Positions 3,043 to 9,495 of a DNA stretch of 38,478 nucleotides are shown here, piece after piece. Each line of letters opens with the position of its first letter. The stretch's first letter is position 1. The notes under the pieces are model-generated. The model was not told the origin of the DNA, made no database searches, and worked only from the letters and a program-made list of their open reading frames with translations. The DNA lies in contig VBKF01000132.1 in assembly GCA_005888095.1 (NCBI GenBank), positions 1 to 38,478 of the forward strand, read 5' to 3'. The translations under genes were made by a program, and so were the position numbers. The stretch is from Deltaproteobacteria bacterium (lineage in GTDB: Bacteria; Desulfobacterota; Binatia; DP-6).

Positions 3043-4572
3043 CTACGATCTGGGACGCCGATCGAGGCTCCGGTATTGGATCGCCTCGGCGAGGTGCGAG
3101 ATGGTGATCTCGTCCTCGCCCGCCAGGTCCGCGATCGTGCGCGCCACGCGGAGGATGCGCGTATAGGCGCGGGCGGACAGCCCTAGGCGGTCGCTCGCTG
3201 CCTCGAGGAGCCGGCGGCCGCGGGCATCGATCCGGCAGAGGCGACGGACCTCGCGTCCCGGCACGTGCGCATTGACGGCCGCGCCGAGCCGCGCGAGCCG
3301 CGTTTGCTGGCGGGCGCGCGCGGCGACCACGCGGGCGCGAATCGTGGCGGAAGGTTCGCCGCCAGGGCTGTCCTCGGCGAGGGACGCCACGGCGACGCGA
3401 GGCACCTCGACGTGCAGGTCGATGCGATCGAGCAGCGGTCCCGAGACGCGCGCCCGGTACCGGTCGATGAGCGGCGGCGTGCAGCGACACTGGTCCGACG
3501 CGTCCCCCAGCCACCCGCACACGCAGGGGTTCATGGCAGCGACGAGCTGAAACGCGGCCGGGAACGCGACCGCGCCGGTGCCGCGCGCGACGGTGATGCG
3601 GCGCTCCTCGAGCGGCTGGCGCAGCGGCTCGAGGGCGTTGCGCCGGAACTCCGGCAGCTCGTCCATGAAGAGCACCCCACGGTGGGCGAGCGTCACCTCG
3701 CCCGGCCGGATCGGGTTCCCACCGCCCAGCAGCGCGGCATCCGAGATCGAGCAGTGCGGCGCGCGCACGGGCCGAGCAGCCACGAGCGGGCGCCCGTCGA
3801 GCAGGCCGGCGACGCTGTGGATCATCGTCACCTCGATTGCTTCGTCGAGGCCGAGGGGGGGCAGGATCGACGGCAGACGCCGGGCGAGCATCGTCTTGCC
3901 GGAGCCCGGGGGACCGATGAGCAGCACGTTGTGGCCACCGGCGGCGGCCACCTCGAGGGCGCGCTTGGCGTGGGGCTGACCGCGGACGTCGGCGAGATCG
4001 CCCGCGGTGAGTGGAGCAGCCGCGAGGAGCGCCGCCGCATCGACCGTCGTCGGCCCTCGGCACTCGCCACGCAGGTGAGCGACCGCCTCGGCGAGCGTCT
4101 CGACGCCGAAGACGGGCGGGCCACCGGCGAGCGCCGCCTCCGCCGCATTGGCGGCGGGGACGAGCATCGCTGCCAGACCCGCCCGCCGGGCCGCGGCCGC
4201 GATCGGCAGCGCGCCGCGCACGCCGTGCACCCGGCCGTCGAGCCCGAGCTCGCCGAGGACGCACCAGGGCGCGAGATCGGGAAGCGGCGGCTTCGCGTCC
4301 GCAGCGAGGATGCCGAGCGCAATCGGCAGGTCGTAGTGCGGACCCTCCTTGCGCACGCCGGCGGGCGCGAGGTTCACGGTCAGGCGCCGCGCGGGGTACT
4401 CGAAGCCCGCGTTGCGCAGCGCCGCGCGGATGCGGTCCGTCGCCTCGCGCACGGCGCCGTCGGGCAGGCCGACGGTGGTCGTGTGCGGCAGACCCGTGGA
4501 GATGTCGACCTCGACGTCGACGACGAGCGCATCGATGCCGCGGAGCGCGCCGGAGCGGACGCGGGCGAGCAT
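3043..4572 (-). CDS. comM: ComM/YifB, Mg-chelatase-like AAA+ ATPase (complete copy)
   Basis: 509 residues, the usual length. The N-terminal ChlI-like domain begins MLARVRSGALRGIDA, as YifB/ComM proteins do; the AAA+ domain has Walker A GPPGSGKT at about residues 220-227, Walker B in VLFMDELPEF, MNPCVCGW, and the C-terminal helical lid typical of Mg-chelatase-like proteins. ComM is a branch-migration helicase that supports integration of incoming DNA during natural transformation (established for Vibrio and Haemophilus). An in-frame ORF extends upstream to 4638, but the ATG at 4570-4572 matches the family start. A truncated second copy lies at 8731-9432. Confidence 0.93.
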   Translation of the reverse strand: MLARVRSGALRGIDALVVDVEVDISTGLPHTTTVGLPDGAVREATDRIRAALRNAGFEYPARRLTVNLAPAGVRKEGPHYDLPIALGILAADAKPPLPDLAPWCVLGELGLDGRVHGVRGALPIAAAARRAGLAAMLVPAANAAEAALAGGPPVFGVETLAEAVAHLRGECRGPTTVDAAALLAAAPLTAGDLADVRGQPHAKRALEVAAAGGHNVLLIGPPGSGKTMLARRLPSILPPLGLDEAIEVTMIHSVAGLLDGRPLVAARPVRAPHCSISDAALLGGGNPIRPGEVTLAHRGVLFMDELPEFRRNALEPLRQPLEERRITVARGTGAVAFPAAFQLVAAMNPCVCGWLGDASDQCRCTPPLIDRYRARVSGPLLDRIDLHVEVPRVAVASLAEDSPGGEPSATIRARVVAARARQQTRLARLGAAVNAHVPGREVRRLCRIDARGRRLLEAASDRLGLSARAYTRILRVARTIADLAGEDEITISHLAEAIQYRSLDRRPRS

Positions 4573-4627
4573 CACATCCGCGTGCCGCGGACGCTCGCTT
4601 GGCGCAATCGCTGCGGGCGGAATATCG

Positions 4628-5206
4628 GGAAGCAGCACGAAGGGAGGACGGGGCTGCCCCCGGCGCCCTGGGGCCCACGGCCGCCGGGGAGGCTCCGCGC
4701 CCCGATGGGGACCGATGAGCCGACACGCTCCGGCGGCGCATCAAGGCGACCGCCCGGTCGAGGGTGCAGGGCGGGAGACCTTCCCGCGGGGCGAGCGATA
4801 CCGAGCTGCATCCGAGGCCCGCAGCTGCCGGCGCAGCGCGGTCTCAGGCGCATGCGCAGCCGAGCGGGATGCGAGGGGCGACACCGCCGCGCCGGTTGAG
4901 GCTCGCGGAAGCGCTCGCGGCGCAGTTCACGCGTACGGCCATGTGGTTGGAGTGGAGCGGCAGCGGCCAGACGCGAGCCTACGGCGCCCGACCGTCTCCC
5001 CCGTGACTGTTGGTGCGCCTCCCCGGCTCCTACCGTCGGGCCCTGGTCGCAGCCTGACGGCCTGACTCATCAGGATCGCACGGCTCGCCTGGCCTCACGT
5101 CATGAGTCGGCGGAGCCTTTGAGAGAAACAATGGCCCGGCAAACCTGACTGACGGTTGATTGGTCGCATTCAATCGACGGAATTCCGGATTGTGTCTAGA
5201 TTTTAT
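4628..5206. other. Region without a supported gene
   Basis: About 580 bp between comM and the IPT/RHS locus. ORFs in several frames are arginine/proline-rich and typical of non-coding high-GC DNA. The last 70 bases (from about 5140) are clearly richer in A and T than the surroundings and lead into a candidate promoter. Confidence 0.4.
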
Positions 5207-5235
5207 TTGACAGCAGGTTGGTGCGATGTGCTAGA
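5207..5235 (+). promoter_or_regulatory. Candidate promoter of the IPT/RHS locus
   Basis: Perfect -35 TTGACA at 5207-5212, 17-bp spacer, weak -10 GCTAGA at 5230-5235, in an AT-rich patch about 60 bp before the ATG. The -10 box is poor, so this is tentative. Confidence 0.35.
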
Positions 5236-5297
5236 CGCCGCGCCTACGTTAATCGCGGACGGCTTCGGCGGATGCTGGGGTCGGAGGGGAGGGCCCC

Positions 5298-5891
5298 ATG
5301 CGACGACCACTACACTGGGTGCGGTTTGGGTTGGCGGCGGTCAGCCTGCTGGTCGGGACCCCGAAGGCTCACGGCGCCGGGGACATCCTCAGCATCACAC
5401 CCCGCTGTGCGCCCTCGGGGGCCTCGGTGACGATTCAGGGTCGCGGGTTTGGCGCGACCAATGTCAGCATCGTGGTCGATGGTGTGCAGGCCCAAATCCT
5501 TCACGCGACCGGCAATCAGGTCGTCTTCGTCATTCCCCCGCAACTGTCGCCCGGCGTGGTCAGTGTCGCGAAGGCGGTCAATCCGGGCGGGCAGACGGGC
5601 AGCATCGCGCTGCGGATTCAAGGCCCGGAGATCTGTGGGAACGGGACGGACGACGACTGCGACGGCATCGTTGATAATCCCCAGCTCTGCGCCCATGTGA
5701 ACCATCCGCCGGTGGCGAATGCAGGCCCCGACGTCACGGCCCCGGTCGGTACGACGGTCGAGCTCGACGGCACGCGGTCGAGCGACCCTGATGGCGATCC
5801 CCTCACATTCCAGTGGACCCTCGTCGCGCAACCCTCGGGCAGCGTGGCGGGTCTCCGTGCTCGCCGAGTCACGAACCGCCACTCTGGCTGA
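5298..5891 (+). CDS. Secreted IPT/TIG-MopE-PKD protein, truncated N-terminal part of an RHS protein
   Basis: 197 residues. An N-terminal signal peptide (Arg-rich start, hydrophobic core, cleavage probably after AHG) is followed by an IPT/TIG Ig-like domain (about 27-110: ITPRCAPSGASVTIQGRGFG), a MopE-type acidic metal-binding motif CGNGTDDDCDGIVD (about 114-127), and the first half of a PKD domain (PPVANAGPDVTAPVGTTVELDG ... DPDGDPLTFQWTL). The PKD domain is cut after SGSVAGL and the frame soon ends at 5889-5891. RHS repeats begin immediately in the next frame, so the middle of a much larger surface protein has probably been lost. RBS GGAGG lies just before the ATG. As it stands it may be a non-functional remnant. 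Confidence 0.75.
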   Translation: MRRPLHWVRFGLAAVSLLVGTPKAHGAGDILSITPRCAPSGASVTIQGRGFGATNVSIVVDGVQAQILHATGNQVVFVIPPQLSPGVVSVAKAVNPGGQTGSIALRIQGPEICGNGTDDDCDGIVDNPQLCAHVNHPPVANAGPDVTAPVGTTVELDGTRSSDPDGDPLTFQWTLVAQPSGSVAGLRARRVTNRHSG

Positions 5892-6352
5892 TCCCACCAA
5901 TCCATTGAGTCTAACTGGTGAGACCACGACCCTGGTGCGCAACGGACGTACCTATACCCGCACGTTCGCGGCCGCTGGGCGCACGGTGACGGAGCAAAGT
6001 CCGGCAGGCCGACAGCGCGTGCAGACGCTCGATGCAAAAGGGCGAGTGCTGTCCGACCGGCTTGGAGGCCTGGCACCGACCAATGTCAGCTACGATGCCC
6101 AGGGACGACTCATCACCGCAACCCGCGGAACTAGCGGAAGCGCGCGCACGTTCAGCATGGGATATGACACGCTGAACCGCCTCGTGAGTGTCACTGACCC
6201 GTTATCGCGGACATTGGGTTTCACCTACAACGACGCGGATCGCGTGGTGACCGAAACGCTGCCGGACGCAAGGCAGGTCCGGTACACATATGATGCTGAT
6301 GGCAATTTGACCTCGGTGACCCCCCCGGGGCGCCCGACCCACACCTCCAGTT
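5850..6352 (+). pseudogene. RHS/YD-repeat segment, middle fragment in another frame
   Basis: Frame 1 carries RHS repeats such as YDAQGRLITATRG, YDTLNRLVSVTDP, YNDADRVVTETLP and YTYDADGNLTSVTPPGR. Its left edge abuts the broken PKD domain near 5850; its right edge is a +1 frameshift at the TTT run 6351-6353. Deleting one T makes it read on as SSYTAVNLESAYVPP into the next segment. It has no start or promoter of its own, so it would be translated only if the frameshifts were absent. Nominally the open frame spans 5719-6540, but the parts outside about 5850-6352 are not RHS-like. Confidence 0.7.
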
Positions 6353-6394
6353 TACACGGCGGTCAATCTGGAGAGCGCGTACGTCCCGCCGGAT

Positions 6395-8011
6395 GTGGGG
6401 GCCGGGCCCACGGCCACGATCTACTCTTACAATCTCGACCGGCAGCTGACGCGCATCACACAGCCAGACAGCCAGACGGTCGAGCTTGGGTACGATTCAG
6501 GTGGGCGCCTCAGCACCGTCACGACGGCGGTTGGCGTTAGCGCCTATGCATACCATCCAACGACGGGAAACCTCTCCAGCGTCGCCGCCCCGGATGGTGG
6601 AGTCATCACCTACACCTATGACGGGCATCTTCCCACTGGGACCGCGTGGACGGGAAGTATCGCTGGGAGCGGGACTCGTATCTATGACAGCGACTCGCGC
6701 GTCTCTTCCACCAGCGTGAATGGGGGCCAGACGGTGAGCTTCCAGTACGATGCAGACGGACTGTTGACCCAGGCCGGGTCGCTCACGCTCACGCGCGACC
6801 CGCAGACGGGGTTGGCGACAGGCAGCACGCTCGGCCAGGTGGCCGATACGCTTGGTTACAACGAGTTGGCCGAGGTGACGACCTATTCCGCAAGTACGGG
6901 TGGAACGCCCGTGCTCAGTGTCTCCTACACCCGTGACGCCATCGGGCGGATCACCGAGAAGGTCGAGACCGTCTTGGGTCAAACTGATACCTACACCTAC
7001 GGCTACGACCCAGGTGGTTACCTCACGAGTGTCATGCGCGACGGCTTGCCGAGCGTGACCTACGGCTACGACGCTAACGGAAATCGGTTGACGCGCGTCA
7101 CTGGAGTCGCGACGGAGACGGGTATCTACGACGATCAAGACCGGATTCTCGCCTATGACGACGCCGTGTACAGCTACACGGCGAACGGGGAACTCCTCAC
7201 GAAGACGAACAGCGGTCAGACGACCACGTACAGCTATGACCAGCTGGGCGAGCTGCGCGACGTAACTCTCCCCAACGGCACGGCGATCGAATACCTGATC
7301 GACGGGGAGAATCGCCGCATCGGGAAGAAGGTCAATGGTGCTGTGGTGCAGGGCTTCCTCTACGAGGATCGGCTGAGGCTGCTTGCAGAGTTGGACGGGA
7401 GTGGCGCGATCGTAGCGCGCTTTGTCTATGGCAGCCGTCCCAACGTGCCAGACTATCTAATCAAGGGAGGCAGCACGTACCGGATACTCGCGGACCAGCT
7501 CGGCAGCCCTCGGCTTGTCGTCGATACTGGGACTAGCTTGGTGGCGCAGCGCCTCGACTACGACGAATTCGGCCGCGTGACGCTGAACACGAATCCAGGG
7601 TTCCAGCCATTTGGGTTTGCGGGAGGGCTCTATGACACGGACACTAAACTCCTGCGGCTTGGTGCCCGTGATTATGATGCGCAGACTGGCCGCTGGACTG
7701 CGAAGGATCCGATTAAATTCCGAGCTCACGATCCAAACTTATATCGGTATGTGCTCGACGATCCGGTAAACCGTGCAGATCCAAGCGGCCTTCTCGTGAT
7801 ATGCACGCGGTTGGAGTTGGCTCCCACAACGTTTTTCTGCTTTAGCCTGGATGGAGGTTTACCGTTCACTGACTTCGGATTTTACGATATCAACAACCCG
7901 CCATGCTCATTCAACTGCTTCTTCAGGGATCCCGACTTCGAGGCAGGTCGTCTGCGAGGACGCAATCGAGATCTGCCGGATCCCGCGGCTGCATCACGGG
8001 GATGCTTGTGA
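6395..8011 (+). CDS. RHS repeat protein with RHS-associated core and variable C-terminal tip
   Basis: 538 residues from an in-frame GTG. At least nine YD repeats (YNLDRQLTRITQP, YDSGGRLSTVTTA, YGYDANGNRLTRVTG and others) lead into the conserved RHS-associated core: ADQLGSPRLVV, FGFAGGLYDTDTKLLRLGARDYD, GRWTAKDPI, NLYRYVLDDPVNRADPSG (ends at residue 465). RHS cores form a shell around a C-terminal effector. Here a 73-residue tip (466-538) with several Cys and Phe residues and visibly lower GC follows; I do not recognise it as a toxin. Upstream parts of the same gene are in frames 3 and 1 (5298-6352), so the present start is probably not original. The stop overlaps a small membrane ORF (TGATG). 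Confidence 0.8.
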   Translation: MGAGPTATIYSYNLDRQLTRITQPDSQTVELGYDSGGRLSTVTTAVGVSAYAYHPTTGNLSSVAAPDGGVITYTYDGHLPTGTAWTGSIAGSGTRIYDSDSRVSSTSVNGGQTVSFQYDADGLLTQAGSLTLTRDPQTGLATGSTLGQVADTLGYNELAEVTTYSASTGGTPVLSVSYTRDAIGRITEKVETVLGQTDTYTYGYDPGGYLTSVMRDGLPSVTYGYDANGNRLTRVTGVATETGIYDDQDRILAYDDAVYSYTANGELLTKTNSGQTTTYSYDQLGELRDVTLPNGTAIEYLIDGENRRIGKKVNGAVVQGFLYEDRLRLLAELDGSGAIVARFVYGSRPNVPDYLIKGGSTYRILADQLGSPRLVVDTGTSLVAQRLDYDEFGRVTLNTNPGFQPFGFAGGLYDTDTKLLRLGARDYDAQTGRWTAKDPIKFRAHDPNLYRYVLDDPVNRADPSGLLVICTRLELAPTTFFCFSLDGGLPFTDFGFYDINNPPCSFNCFFRDPDFEAGRLRGRNRDLPDPAAASRGCL

Positions 8012-8127
8012 TGTCACGTAAGAAATCACCCTTCCGGCTTGAGGCTATGCTGAACCTGCTTTTACCCGTAGTCCTCATTCTAATGGGGATCCTTGGCGCC
8101 CTGTGGATACGTTTTTGTGGACGGTGA
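8011..8127 (+). CDS. Small single-span membrane protein overlapping the RHS stop
   Basis: 38 residues from ATG 8011 (or 41 from ATG 8002 in the same frame). The RHS stop and this ATG share bases as TGATG, the classical layout for translational coupling. The product has a basic N-terminus (MSRKKSPFR) and one hydrophobic segment of about 20 residues (LNLLLPVVLILMGILGALW), ending RFCGR, so it should sit in the inner membrane. Genes directly after an RHS tip often encode the cognate immunity protein; that role is only a guess here, as neither the tip nor this peptide resembles a family I know. Confidence 0.45.
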   Translation: MSRKKSPFRLEAMLNLLLPVVLILMGILGALWIRFCGR

Positions 8128-8183
8128 TATGAGCTTGTGGCAATGAGGGTCCAGACGGTGATTATCCGGGGTTTACGAAAAGG

Positions 8184-8535
8184 GTGTTCGGCGAACTGAA
8201 GGGCGGCTTCCCCTTCGGCTGCGTCCCGACGATGCGTTACGCCGGCAGGAGCGCCTGGCAACTGCTCAGCGCGCTGGCGTTCAACCTCATGCGCGGCCTC
8301 CAGACGGCGACGACTGCCCAGCCGCGGCGGCCGATGCGCAGGCGGCGCGGCCTGTTCCGCTTCGAGACGATTCACATGCTGCGCTACCTCTGTCTGCAGC
8401 GGGCCGGCGTGATCGTTCGTCCCGACGGCTGCGCAACGCTCGAGGTCGGGCGCTCGCGGGCCGTCGTCGAGCGGTTTACCCACCTCGACCGCCTTTGGAG
8501 GTGGCGTAGGCTTTGTCACATCGAGGCTAAGAGCC
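8184..8535 (+). pseudogene. IS1380-type transposase, C-terminal remnant
   Basis: The frame reads VFGELKGGFPFGCVPT, then ALAFNLMRGLQ, then a C-terminal helix-rich tail, which matches the end of DDE transposases of the IS1380 group (ELK-GF-DR-P, followed by NLLR-Q). The N-terminal DDE domain is missing: nothing similar precedes 8175, where the RHS locus ends about 50 bp earlier. No terminal inverted repeats could be identified. The remnant sits between the RHS locus and the truncated comM copy, so an insertion here may have generated that duplication. The open frame nominally continues to 8720 but without transposase character. Confidence 0.6.
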
Positions 8536-8730: not shown

Positions 8731-9432
8731 TCAACGGGGCTTCGAGGACGAAGCGGAGTAGTTCACTATCGATCCGAACAGGAGGACGTTGTGGCCACCG
8801 GCGGCGGCCACCTCGAGCGCGCGCTTGGCGTGCGGCTGGCCCCGCACGTCGGCGAGATCGCCCGCGGCGAGTGGAGCAACAGCGAGGAGGGCCGCCGCAT
8901 CGACCGTCACAGGCTCCCTGCTGTTGCCACGCAGATGGGTCACCGCCTCGGCGAGTGTCTCGACGCCGAAGACGGGCGGACCGCCCGCGAGTGCCGCCTC
9001 GGCCGCGTTGGCAGCGGGCACGAGCATCGCGGCGAGGCCCGCGCGCCGGGCCGCCGCCGCGATCGGCAGCGCGCCCCGGACGTCATGCACGCGGCCATCG
9101 AGGCCGAGCTCGCCGAGGACGCACCAGGGGCCGAGATCGGGAAGCGGCGGCTTTGCTTCGGCGGCAAGAATGCCGAGCGCGATCGAGAGGTCGTAGTGGG
9201 GGCCCTCCTTGCGTACCCCTGCGGGCGCGAGGTTCACGGTGACGCGCCGCGTGGGGTACTCGAAGCCCGCGTTGCGCAACGCCGCACGGATGCGGTCCGT
9301 TGCCTCCCGCACCGCGCCGTCGGGCAGGCCGACGGTCGTCGTGTGCGGCAGACCCGTCGAGACGTCCACCTCGACGTCGACGACGAGCGCATCGATGCCG
9401 CGGAGAGCGCCGGAGCGGACGCGGGCGAGCAT
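8731..9432 (-). pseudogene. Truncated second copy of comM (N-terminal domain only)
   Basis: 233 residues, starting at the same MLARVRSGALRGIDA as comM and co-linear with it at a constant offset of 4860 bases without indels inside the coding part. It follows the intact protein to HNVLL, just before Walker A, then diverges into FGSIVNYSASS and stops. The ATPase domain is therefore entirely absent. By eye the copies agree at roughly 85-90% of bases, and similarity extends about 55 bp upstream of the ATG (to about 9486). It is an old or imported partial duplication, not a recent one. Whether the ChlI-like domain is still made is unknown. Confidence 0.85.
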
Positions 9433-9495
9433 GACAGTCCGCGTGCCGCGAGCGACGGGCTGCGGCAATCGCTGCGAGCGGAATACTGTCCTGCG

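Follow-up and report, generated by a model that had tools for sequence, protein, structure and literature searches.

The window, the whole analysed stretch of 38,478 nucleotides from a Deltaproteobacteria bacterium, carries on its forward strand an RHS/teneurin-like gene that is split into three frames upstream of a short variable tip. The probable N-terminal piece, frame A (5298..5891, +; ORF list and Pfam), encodes a TIG/IPT domain (Pfam TIG, E 9e-9), a PKD_4 domain (E 6e-8) and a MopE-like repeat below the cut-off, and its start appeared signal-peptide-like by eye. It was assigned to the RHS gene by its position and domain type, since no significant match to this piece was found in the eight relatives examined. 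Frame B (5860..6342, +, ends approximate), the middle piece of the YD-repeat shell, was delimited by tblastn of relatives and uses a reading frame that differs from those of both neighbours; by blastp it mapped inside the shell, from residue 1,294-1,636, of six long relatives resembling teneurin-like proteins (TLPs). The C-terminal part of the shell lies in frame C (6353..7789, +, first listed start codon 6395), identified with Pfam, TIGR03696 and PDB. The 538-aa ORF of this frame matched Pfam TEN_YD-shell with 75.6 bits, along with RHS repeats, and the Rhs-associated core model TIGR03696 with 67 bits against a cut-off of 32.5. The core end, PVNRADPSGL, fits PxxxxDPxGL, the motif at which sequence conservation ends in Rhs proteins (PMC3150448). 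Among solved structures in PDB, the shell was closest to two teneurin-like proteins (E 1.2e-75 and 3.6e-74), with animal teneurins (E 3.5e-29 at best) and Rhs-family proteins (E 2e-27 at best) well behind. The residues of self-cleavage are in place, with Arg at 7667-7669 and Asp at 7706-7708 and 7778-7780, spaced by 13 and 24; as R150, D163 and D187 of alignment A1, they were invariant in 12 of 12 aligned cores. The cleavage residues of BiTLP, R2103, D2116 and D2140, have the same 13/24 spacing (PMC13018210).

A TLP is recognised by FN-plug, NHL and YD-shell domains lying adjacent, in this order and in one frame. The window copy falls outside this definition: Pfam found neither FN-plug nor NHL in its pieces, and the YD shell is partial and spread over two frames. 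Relatives from five other genomes of the same class have open frames of 2,096-2,328 codons. The delivery gene of the window is broken and therefore the effector is not produced there in its normal form; the small gene behind the tip could at most survive as orphan immunity. The frame breaks may also be an assembly error.

Directly behind the core signature DPSG (7778-7789, +, within PVNRADPSGL), a tip of 73 aa extends over 7790-8008 (7790..8011 with the stop, +), as assigned by translation and by homology to the tip of a second locus, L095, described below. Its stop codon TGA (8009-8011) overlaps the ATG (8011-8013) of a mini-ORF in the arrangement TGATG. This mini-ORF (8011..8127, +, stop 8125-8127) encodes a one-span membrane peptide of 38 aa, the candidate immunity partner, which was likewise assigned by translation and by homology, in this case to the 31-aa ORF of L095. 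A weak Shine-Dalgarno-like GGGGA (7998..8002, +) was noted by eye 8 nt before it. The tip contains 5 Cys and 10 Phe (counted by eye) and lacks a strong membrane span, with a best Kyte-Doolittle 19-mer of 1.4; the 38-aa peptide has a single hydrophobic span reaching 2.5. In 300-base windows the GC content was 0.52-0.54 across 7600-8199, 0.57-0.64 in the preceding core, and 0.66-0.79 before 5050 and after 8200. The sequence-only reading had described a 73-residue tip of lower GC past DPSG and a 38-residue one-span ORF starting in TGATG, and the coordinates, GC profile, translation and Kyte-Doolittle values bear this description out. The frequency of such a junction was evaluated by counting stop codons with an ATG at -4..+11 nt that opens an ORF of 28-60 aa with a hydrophobicity of at least 2.4. 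Only 14 of 25,402 plus-strand stop codons at other loci qualified, and none of 4,767 in base shuffles of 5201-8130, which makes a hydrophobic mini-ORF so placed unlikely by chance. The window itself gave 1 of 539 on the plus strand, presumably the tip/mini-ORF junction, and 0 of 604 on the minus strand.

The neighbourhood downstream bears the marks of rearrangement. A probable C-terminal remnant of an IS1380-family transposase (8187..8447, +) starts 60 bases past the mini-ORF; it adjoins the debris and lies outside the module. The match was weak (NCBIfam NF033539, E 3e-4), its 19.4 bits lying far below the cut-off of 180, Pfam gave nothing at 8187..8447, and no second copy of the remnant was found in its own genome. 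It is followed by a partial second copy of a gene with Pfam ChlI and Mg-chelatase domains (8774-9485, -), which marks the debris boundary, also outside the module, and is 87.6% identical over 712 bp to a full copy at 3043-4638 (-); we take both genes to be comM-like. By eye, the partial copy is cut near its Walker-A region. Since the broken TLP gene and the IS1380-like remnant sit between the two copies, comM may have been an entry point of foreign DNA. The region looks like an acquired element in decay. We regard it as an even bet that the window copy is inert debris throughout, left by a TLP gene of horizontal origin, and that the tip and mini-ORF have stayed open by accident. The two frame breaks, the plug and propeller domains missing from the remaining pieces, and the adjoining IS1380-like remnant and partial comM-like copy are in favour of this explanation, as are the lack of a core match at 1e-20 in two genomes of the same genus and a promoter search with no convincing result (one site, on the minus strand, versus 0.7 expected). 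However, no internal stop interrupts the mini-ORF or the final 538 codons, which include the tip, and expression of orphan CDI immunity genes is known (PMC3150448). The debris explanation is also compatible with reading the tip and mini-ORF as a toxin-immunity module, a reading that concerns the module as a kind. The sequence-only reading had offered either a tip with a membrane partner or mere debris; the former holds in that the variable tip and its small membrane partner recur in L095, and the latter holds upstream of the tip, where the frames are broken.

A related core at E <= 1e-20 was present in 28 of 145 genomes, that of the window included. Most of the alignments that reached the core end stopped at residue 464-474, and a few at 478-495; past this point the sequences differ between relatives, so that a conserved core is joined to a variable tip. 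Distinct motif-bearing tips are carried by L030, L023, L006 and L016, with motifs that we take to be phospholipase-A2-like (L030), lipase-like (L023) and YHTH (L006 and L016). The motif CCxxHDxCY, presumably of the phospholipase-A2-like kind, was seen in the tips of L030 (2899-3192) and L107, and the L030 tip had no match in Pfam. A scan of 84,980 species genomes gave at least 475 related places, of which the best 80 (L082-L161) were kept. Among these best 80 of at least 475, 77 tips were complete, with lengths of 32-205 aa (median 122), and only six of the 77 measured 73 aa or less. An ATG ORF of at least 28 aa lay at -25..+50 nt after 44 of the 77 tips, and an ORF with a strong membrane span stood close behind 20 of them; with open-ended ORFs uncounted, the mini-ORF of L095 was the sole membrane-span ORF of 60 aa or less among those 20. 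Separately, L074 (G087:C5:200-2500) has a TLP-type tip of 96 aa followed at +41 by a 58-aa ORF with a GTG start and one strong membrane span. Related cores, among the matches listed, were also seen in genomes labelled Nitrospirae, Planctomycetota, Chloroflexi, Omnitrophota and Nitrospinota, and these five labels lie outside the six phyla given for TLPs in PMC13018210.

Tip cysteines were considered in a side test asking whether they can bond to the plug, as in BiTLP, with 2,000 shuffles per comparison. The first set consisted of 76 tips of at least 40 aa, namely 75 of the 77 complete L082-L161 tips (best 80 of at least 475) and that of the window. A cysteine occurred within the last 10 residues in 34 of the 76 versus 14.7 in shuffles, a number reached by 0 of 2,000, and none of the 75 tips lacked Cys versus 7.7 expected. 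The terminal excess in the L082-L161 tips would fit a tip-to-plug disulfide of the BiTLP type. For the second set, 28 tips were picked by hand among the 47 loci of the window's class (L002-L030 and L062-L079), 27 of which are represented; loci passed over include L011, whose alignment extends beyond the core, L012, where a stop falls in the core region, and L018, whose core end lacked coverage. No terminal excess was found in this set (6 versus 4.9, reached by 692 of 2,000 shuffles), five tips were without Cys versus 2.5 expected, and plug and tip cysteines showed no clear link in the 27 loci. The two sets have a few contigs in common (e.g., the class contigs L091, L133 and L161).

Both parts of the pair were found together at only one of the best 80 of at least 475 places. 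This locus, L095, belongs to the metagenome-assembled genome "Proteobacteria bacterium WH4.bin33" (G160) and has a 68-aa tip followed, 4 nt past the tip stop, by a 31-aa one-span ORF. The matching tip segments read LYYIDNAPCYFLCFF in L095 and FYDINNPPCSFNCFF in the window, with the conserved segment G.Y.I.N.PC.F.CFF.D, and the two mini-proteins both end in GR. The tips are identical at 21 of 52 positions (40%; pairwise E 8e-9 for a single comparison) and the mini-ORFs at 12 of 31 (39%; E 7e-6). Over roughly the last 20 residues, the alignment of the tips largely breaks down. Compared with the best 80 tips, the window tip scored 79 with L095 and 38 with the next; against the ORFs downstream of the same 80, the window mini-ORF scored 57 with L095 and 35 with the next. 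Matches at codon positions 1, 2 and 3 numbered 33, 36 and 23 of 66 for the tip and 16, 23 and 7 of 31 for the mini-ORF, so the likeness is at the protein level, most clearly in the mini-ORF. That it merely reflects chance between short peptides is extremely improbable. The peptides are indeed short and the examples only two; nevertheless, both find their top match at one locus, in the equivalent position after the same core, and none of 5,000 full shuffles reached either score. When the hydrophobic span of the mini-ORF was shuffled alone, 3 of 5,000 did so. The sequence-only reading had proposed looking for co-occurring pairs behind other RHS cores, and one such locus was thus found, which leaves the family at two members: the tip and the adjacent small gene occur together in two genomes only, that of the window and G160. 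It had also considered that the tip might be a longer one truncated in the window and the small ORF not conserved. A homologous tip of similar length, 68 versus 73 aa, ends a long open relative in L095, and therefore the window tip is not a truncated long tip; this candidate explanation was ruled out, and the 31-aa homologue beside the L095 tip demonstrates conservation of the small ORF.

The host gene of the pair is intact in G160, where the tip closes an unbroken TLP frame of 2,321 aa (L167). TTR, NHL and YD-shell scored above their Pfam cut-offs, and FN-plug reached 23.7 bits against a cut-off of 27.8; with FN-plug, NHL and YD-shell in order and in a single frame, the protein is a TLP in the sense of PMC13018210, save for the weak FN-plug score. 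The debris explanation given for the window is silent on this module, whose host frame is open. The order in G160 is the tip, the mini-ORF, an 83-aa ORF, a core copy of 84.9% nucleotide identity and a third core copy of 81.7%. The first of these displaced copies has a Tlde1-like tip (Pfam PF10908, E 3e-6, 27.9 bits versus 30.1). In L095 (2948-4569), this copy with its Tlde1-like (L,D-transpeptidase-type) tip is followed by a 140-aa ORF, hydrophobic by eye, and then by the further core copy. The 83-aa ORF would measure 99 aa from an earlier ATG and has two spans by eye.

With an 83-aa ORF placed behind the mini-ORF and ahead of the next core copy, immunity may be conferred by a protein other than the mini-protein. 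Under this alternative, which we consider unlikely, the toxic tip would be accompanied by a mini-protein helper and, encoded apart, by its true immunity factor, the 83-aa protein found in G160. The mini-protein would then serve, for example, as a membrane receptor, an insertion partner or a second toxic component, and the window would have lost its immunity gene during the rearrangement to which the IS1380-like remnant testifies. The position of the 83-aa ORF suggests such a division of roles, and the singular smallness of the L095 partner among the 20 strong-span ORFs points the same way. On the other hand, no trace of a counterpart of the 83-aa ORF was found in the window, the mini-ORF stands directly behind the tip at both loci, and in the published TLP systems the immunity gene follows the TLP immediately (PMC13018210). 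A different role appears quite improbable, in which the tip would form a structural end-piece of a surface TLP or act as its adhesion ligand, with the mini-protein as membrane anchor or chaperone for it. In favour of this role, teneurins of animals are receptors in adhesion, PMC13018210 leaves room for signalling by bacterial TLPs, and the tip matched no catalytic family; but the displaced core copies, one of them with a Tlde1-like tip, form the pattern of a toxin array, and the tips of relatives bear the presumed phospholipase-A2-like and lipase-like motifs.

The pair was rare in every collection searched. A two-row tip profile was run on 148 genomes of the class, 395 of the phylum, 398 of the phylum of G160, three of the order of G160, 245 of the phylum of a Sorangium genome, and genomes representing 68 of the 80 loci (49 genomes for 50 loci, plus 18 of 18 for the rest of the 68); these sets overlap, and the phylum sets are samples. 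Strong matches were obtained only in G000 and G160, and four other hits (E 0.0015-0.009) were as chance predicts for so many genomes. The profile of two sequences is weak and therefore more distant members may exist. L032 (E 0.002, 145 genomes), L165 (E 0.0015, 398 genomes) and L033 (E 0.011) were rejected as chance matches with nearby stops and no upstream core; L163, L164 and L166 (E 0.008-0.009) were taken as chance by their E values alone. The 38-aa ORF gave hits at E <= 1 in 25 of 145 genomes, all except its own at E >= 0.058, and its own genome held no second copy of the tip or mini-ORF. No matches were found in viral contigs, plasmids or phages (phages searched with the window tip alone). 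The scan of species genomes with the window tip alone found no relative although L095 is in that collection, and was insensitive because it missed this locus. The sequence-only reading had placed both peptides outside recognised families, in agreement with the absence of a match for the window tip and mini-ORF in Pfam, NCBIfam and PADLOC. The L095 tip (Pfam, NCBIfam/PADLOC) and mini-ORF (NCBIfam/PADLOC libraries) likewise matched no known family. The best hit of the tip among solved structures was at chance level (E 2.7), and its predicted structure was useless (mean pLDDT 41); given this model and the lack of a family match, no activity can be named for the tip. Among the matches listed in literature word searches of partial coverage, no title or abstract opening dealt with a one-span immunity protein of 31-38 aa behind an RHS/TLP tip.

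Because the pair recurs behind an open TLP frame with displaced core copies, a rare TLP toxin-immunity module appears the most likely reading. Together, the tip and the 38-aa ORF would serve a bacterial teneurin-like protein as its polymorphic toxin-immunity module, a reading to which we assign a probability of roughly 60%; toxicity, immunity and the membrane target are predictions. The intact protein would be exported with the tip enclosed in its shell, and the aspartyl self-protease of the shell, whose residues are conserved, would cut after DPSGL. The freed peptide of about 72 residues, rich in Cys and Phe, would then harm a neighbouring cell, most likely at the inner membrane. In the producer, the one-span mini-protein, translated from the overlapping TGATG, would block the toxin in the inner membrane. 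The proposed membrane site draws on two things, the single span of the partner and, by analogy, the likeness to the BiTLP tip and Tse5. In its narrowest form, the proposal is a minimal pair: a PCxFxCFF tip some 70 residues long, which would be released from the teneurin-like shell to act against the inner membrane, and a lone transmembrane helix of 31-38 residues, which would neutralise it within the bilayer; we put this forward tentatively, as a possibility rather than an expectation. To our knowledge, few immunity proteins of polymorphic toxins are as small as this partner of 31-38 residues would be. Should the pair function in this way, it would be a new toxin-immunity family for bacterial teneurin-like proteins and, if true, an unusually small system for how a single helix protects a membrane. 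Genes of 31-38 codons are easily overlooked in annotation, and short ORFs right behind RHS/TLP tips merit a conservation test. The window copy itself, a broken remnant, is of little weight.

Toxic tips of TLPs, with immunity genes behind them, have already been published (PMC13018210), and the small partner is the unusual trait here. In PMC13018210, three of nine tested TLP C-termini inhibited E. coli, almost all TLPs had a gene directly downstream, one of which was shown to neutralise, and animal teneurins are thought to descend from the bacterial teneurin-like kind. The pair described here shares with these TLPs the YD shell, the PxxxxDPxG site, the R/D/D spacing of 13/24, a polymorphic C-terminal domain and a downstream gene, and the G160 copy also has TTR, NHL, YD-shell and a weak FN-plug match. 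It differs in that the window copy is frame-broken and without FN-plug and NHL, the tip is small, roughly half of the ~15 kDa reported as average, and the partner has 31-38 aa and a single span (PMC13018210). The exported BiTLP tip permeabilises membranes, and membrane action of the window tip is proposed by analogy with it; both occupy the TLP tip position and contain Cys (BiTLP C2216 bonds plug C719), whereas the BiTLP tip is described with a predicted transmembrane region and the window tip lacks a strong span (PMC13018210). Tse5/Tsi5 of Pseudomonas aeruginosa, a pore-forming Rhs toxin, similarly has an Rhs shell that encapsulates a membrane-acting tip, with cleavage needed for toxicity, but Tse5 is a T6SS effector with a 16-kDa tip and is related to the window only in the core (E 3e-13 to the Tse5 chain; PMC10684867). 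Rhs and CDI loci are known to carry orphan modules in arrays; the orphan rhs-CT/rhsI and cdiA-CT/cdiI modules resemble the G160 array of core copies with different tips and ORFs and have the PxxxxDPxGL boundary in common, whereas the window has one tip followed by an IS-like remnant instead of an array (PMC3150448).
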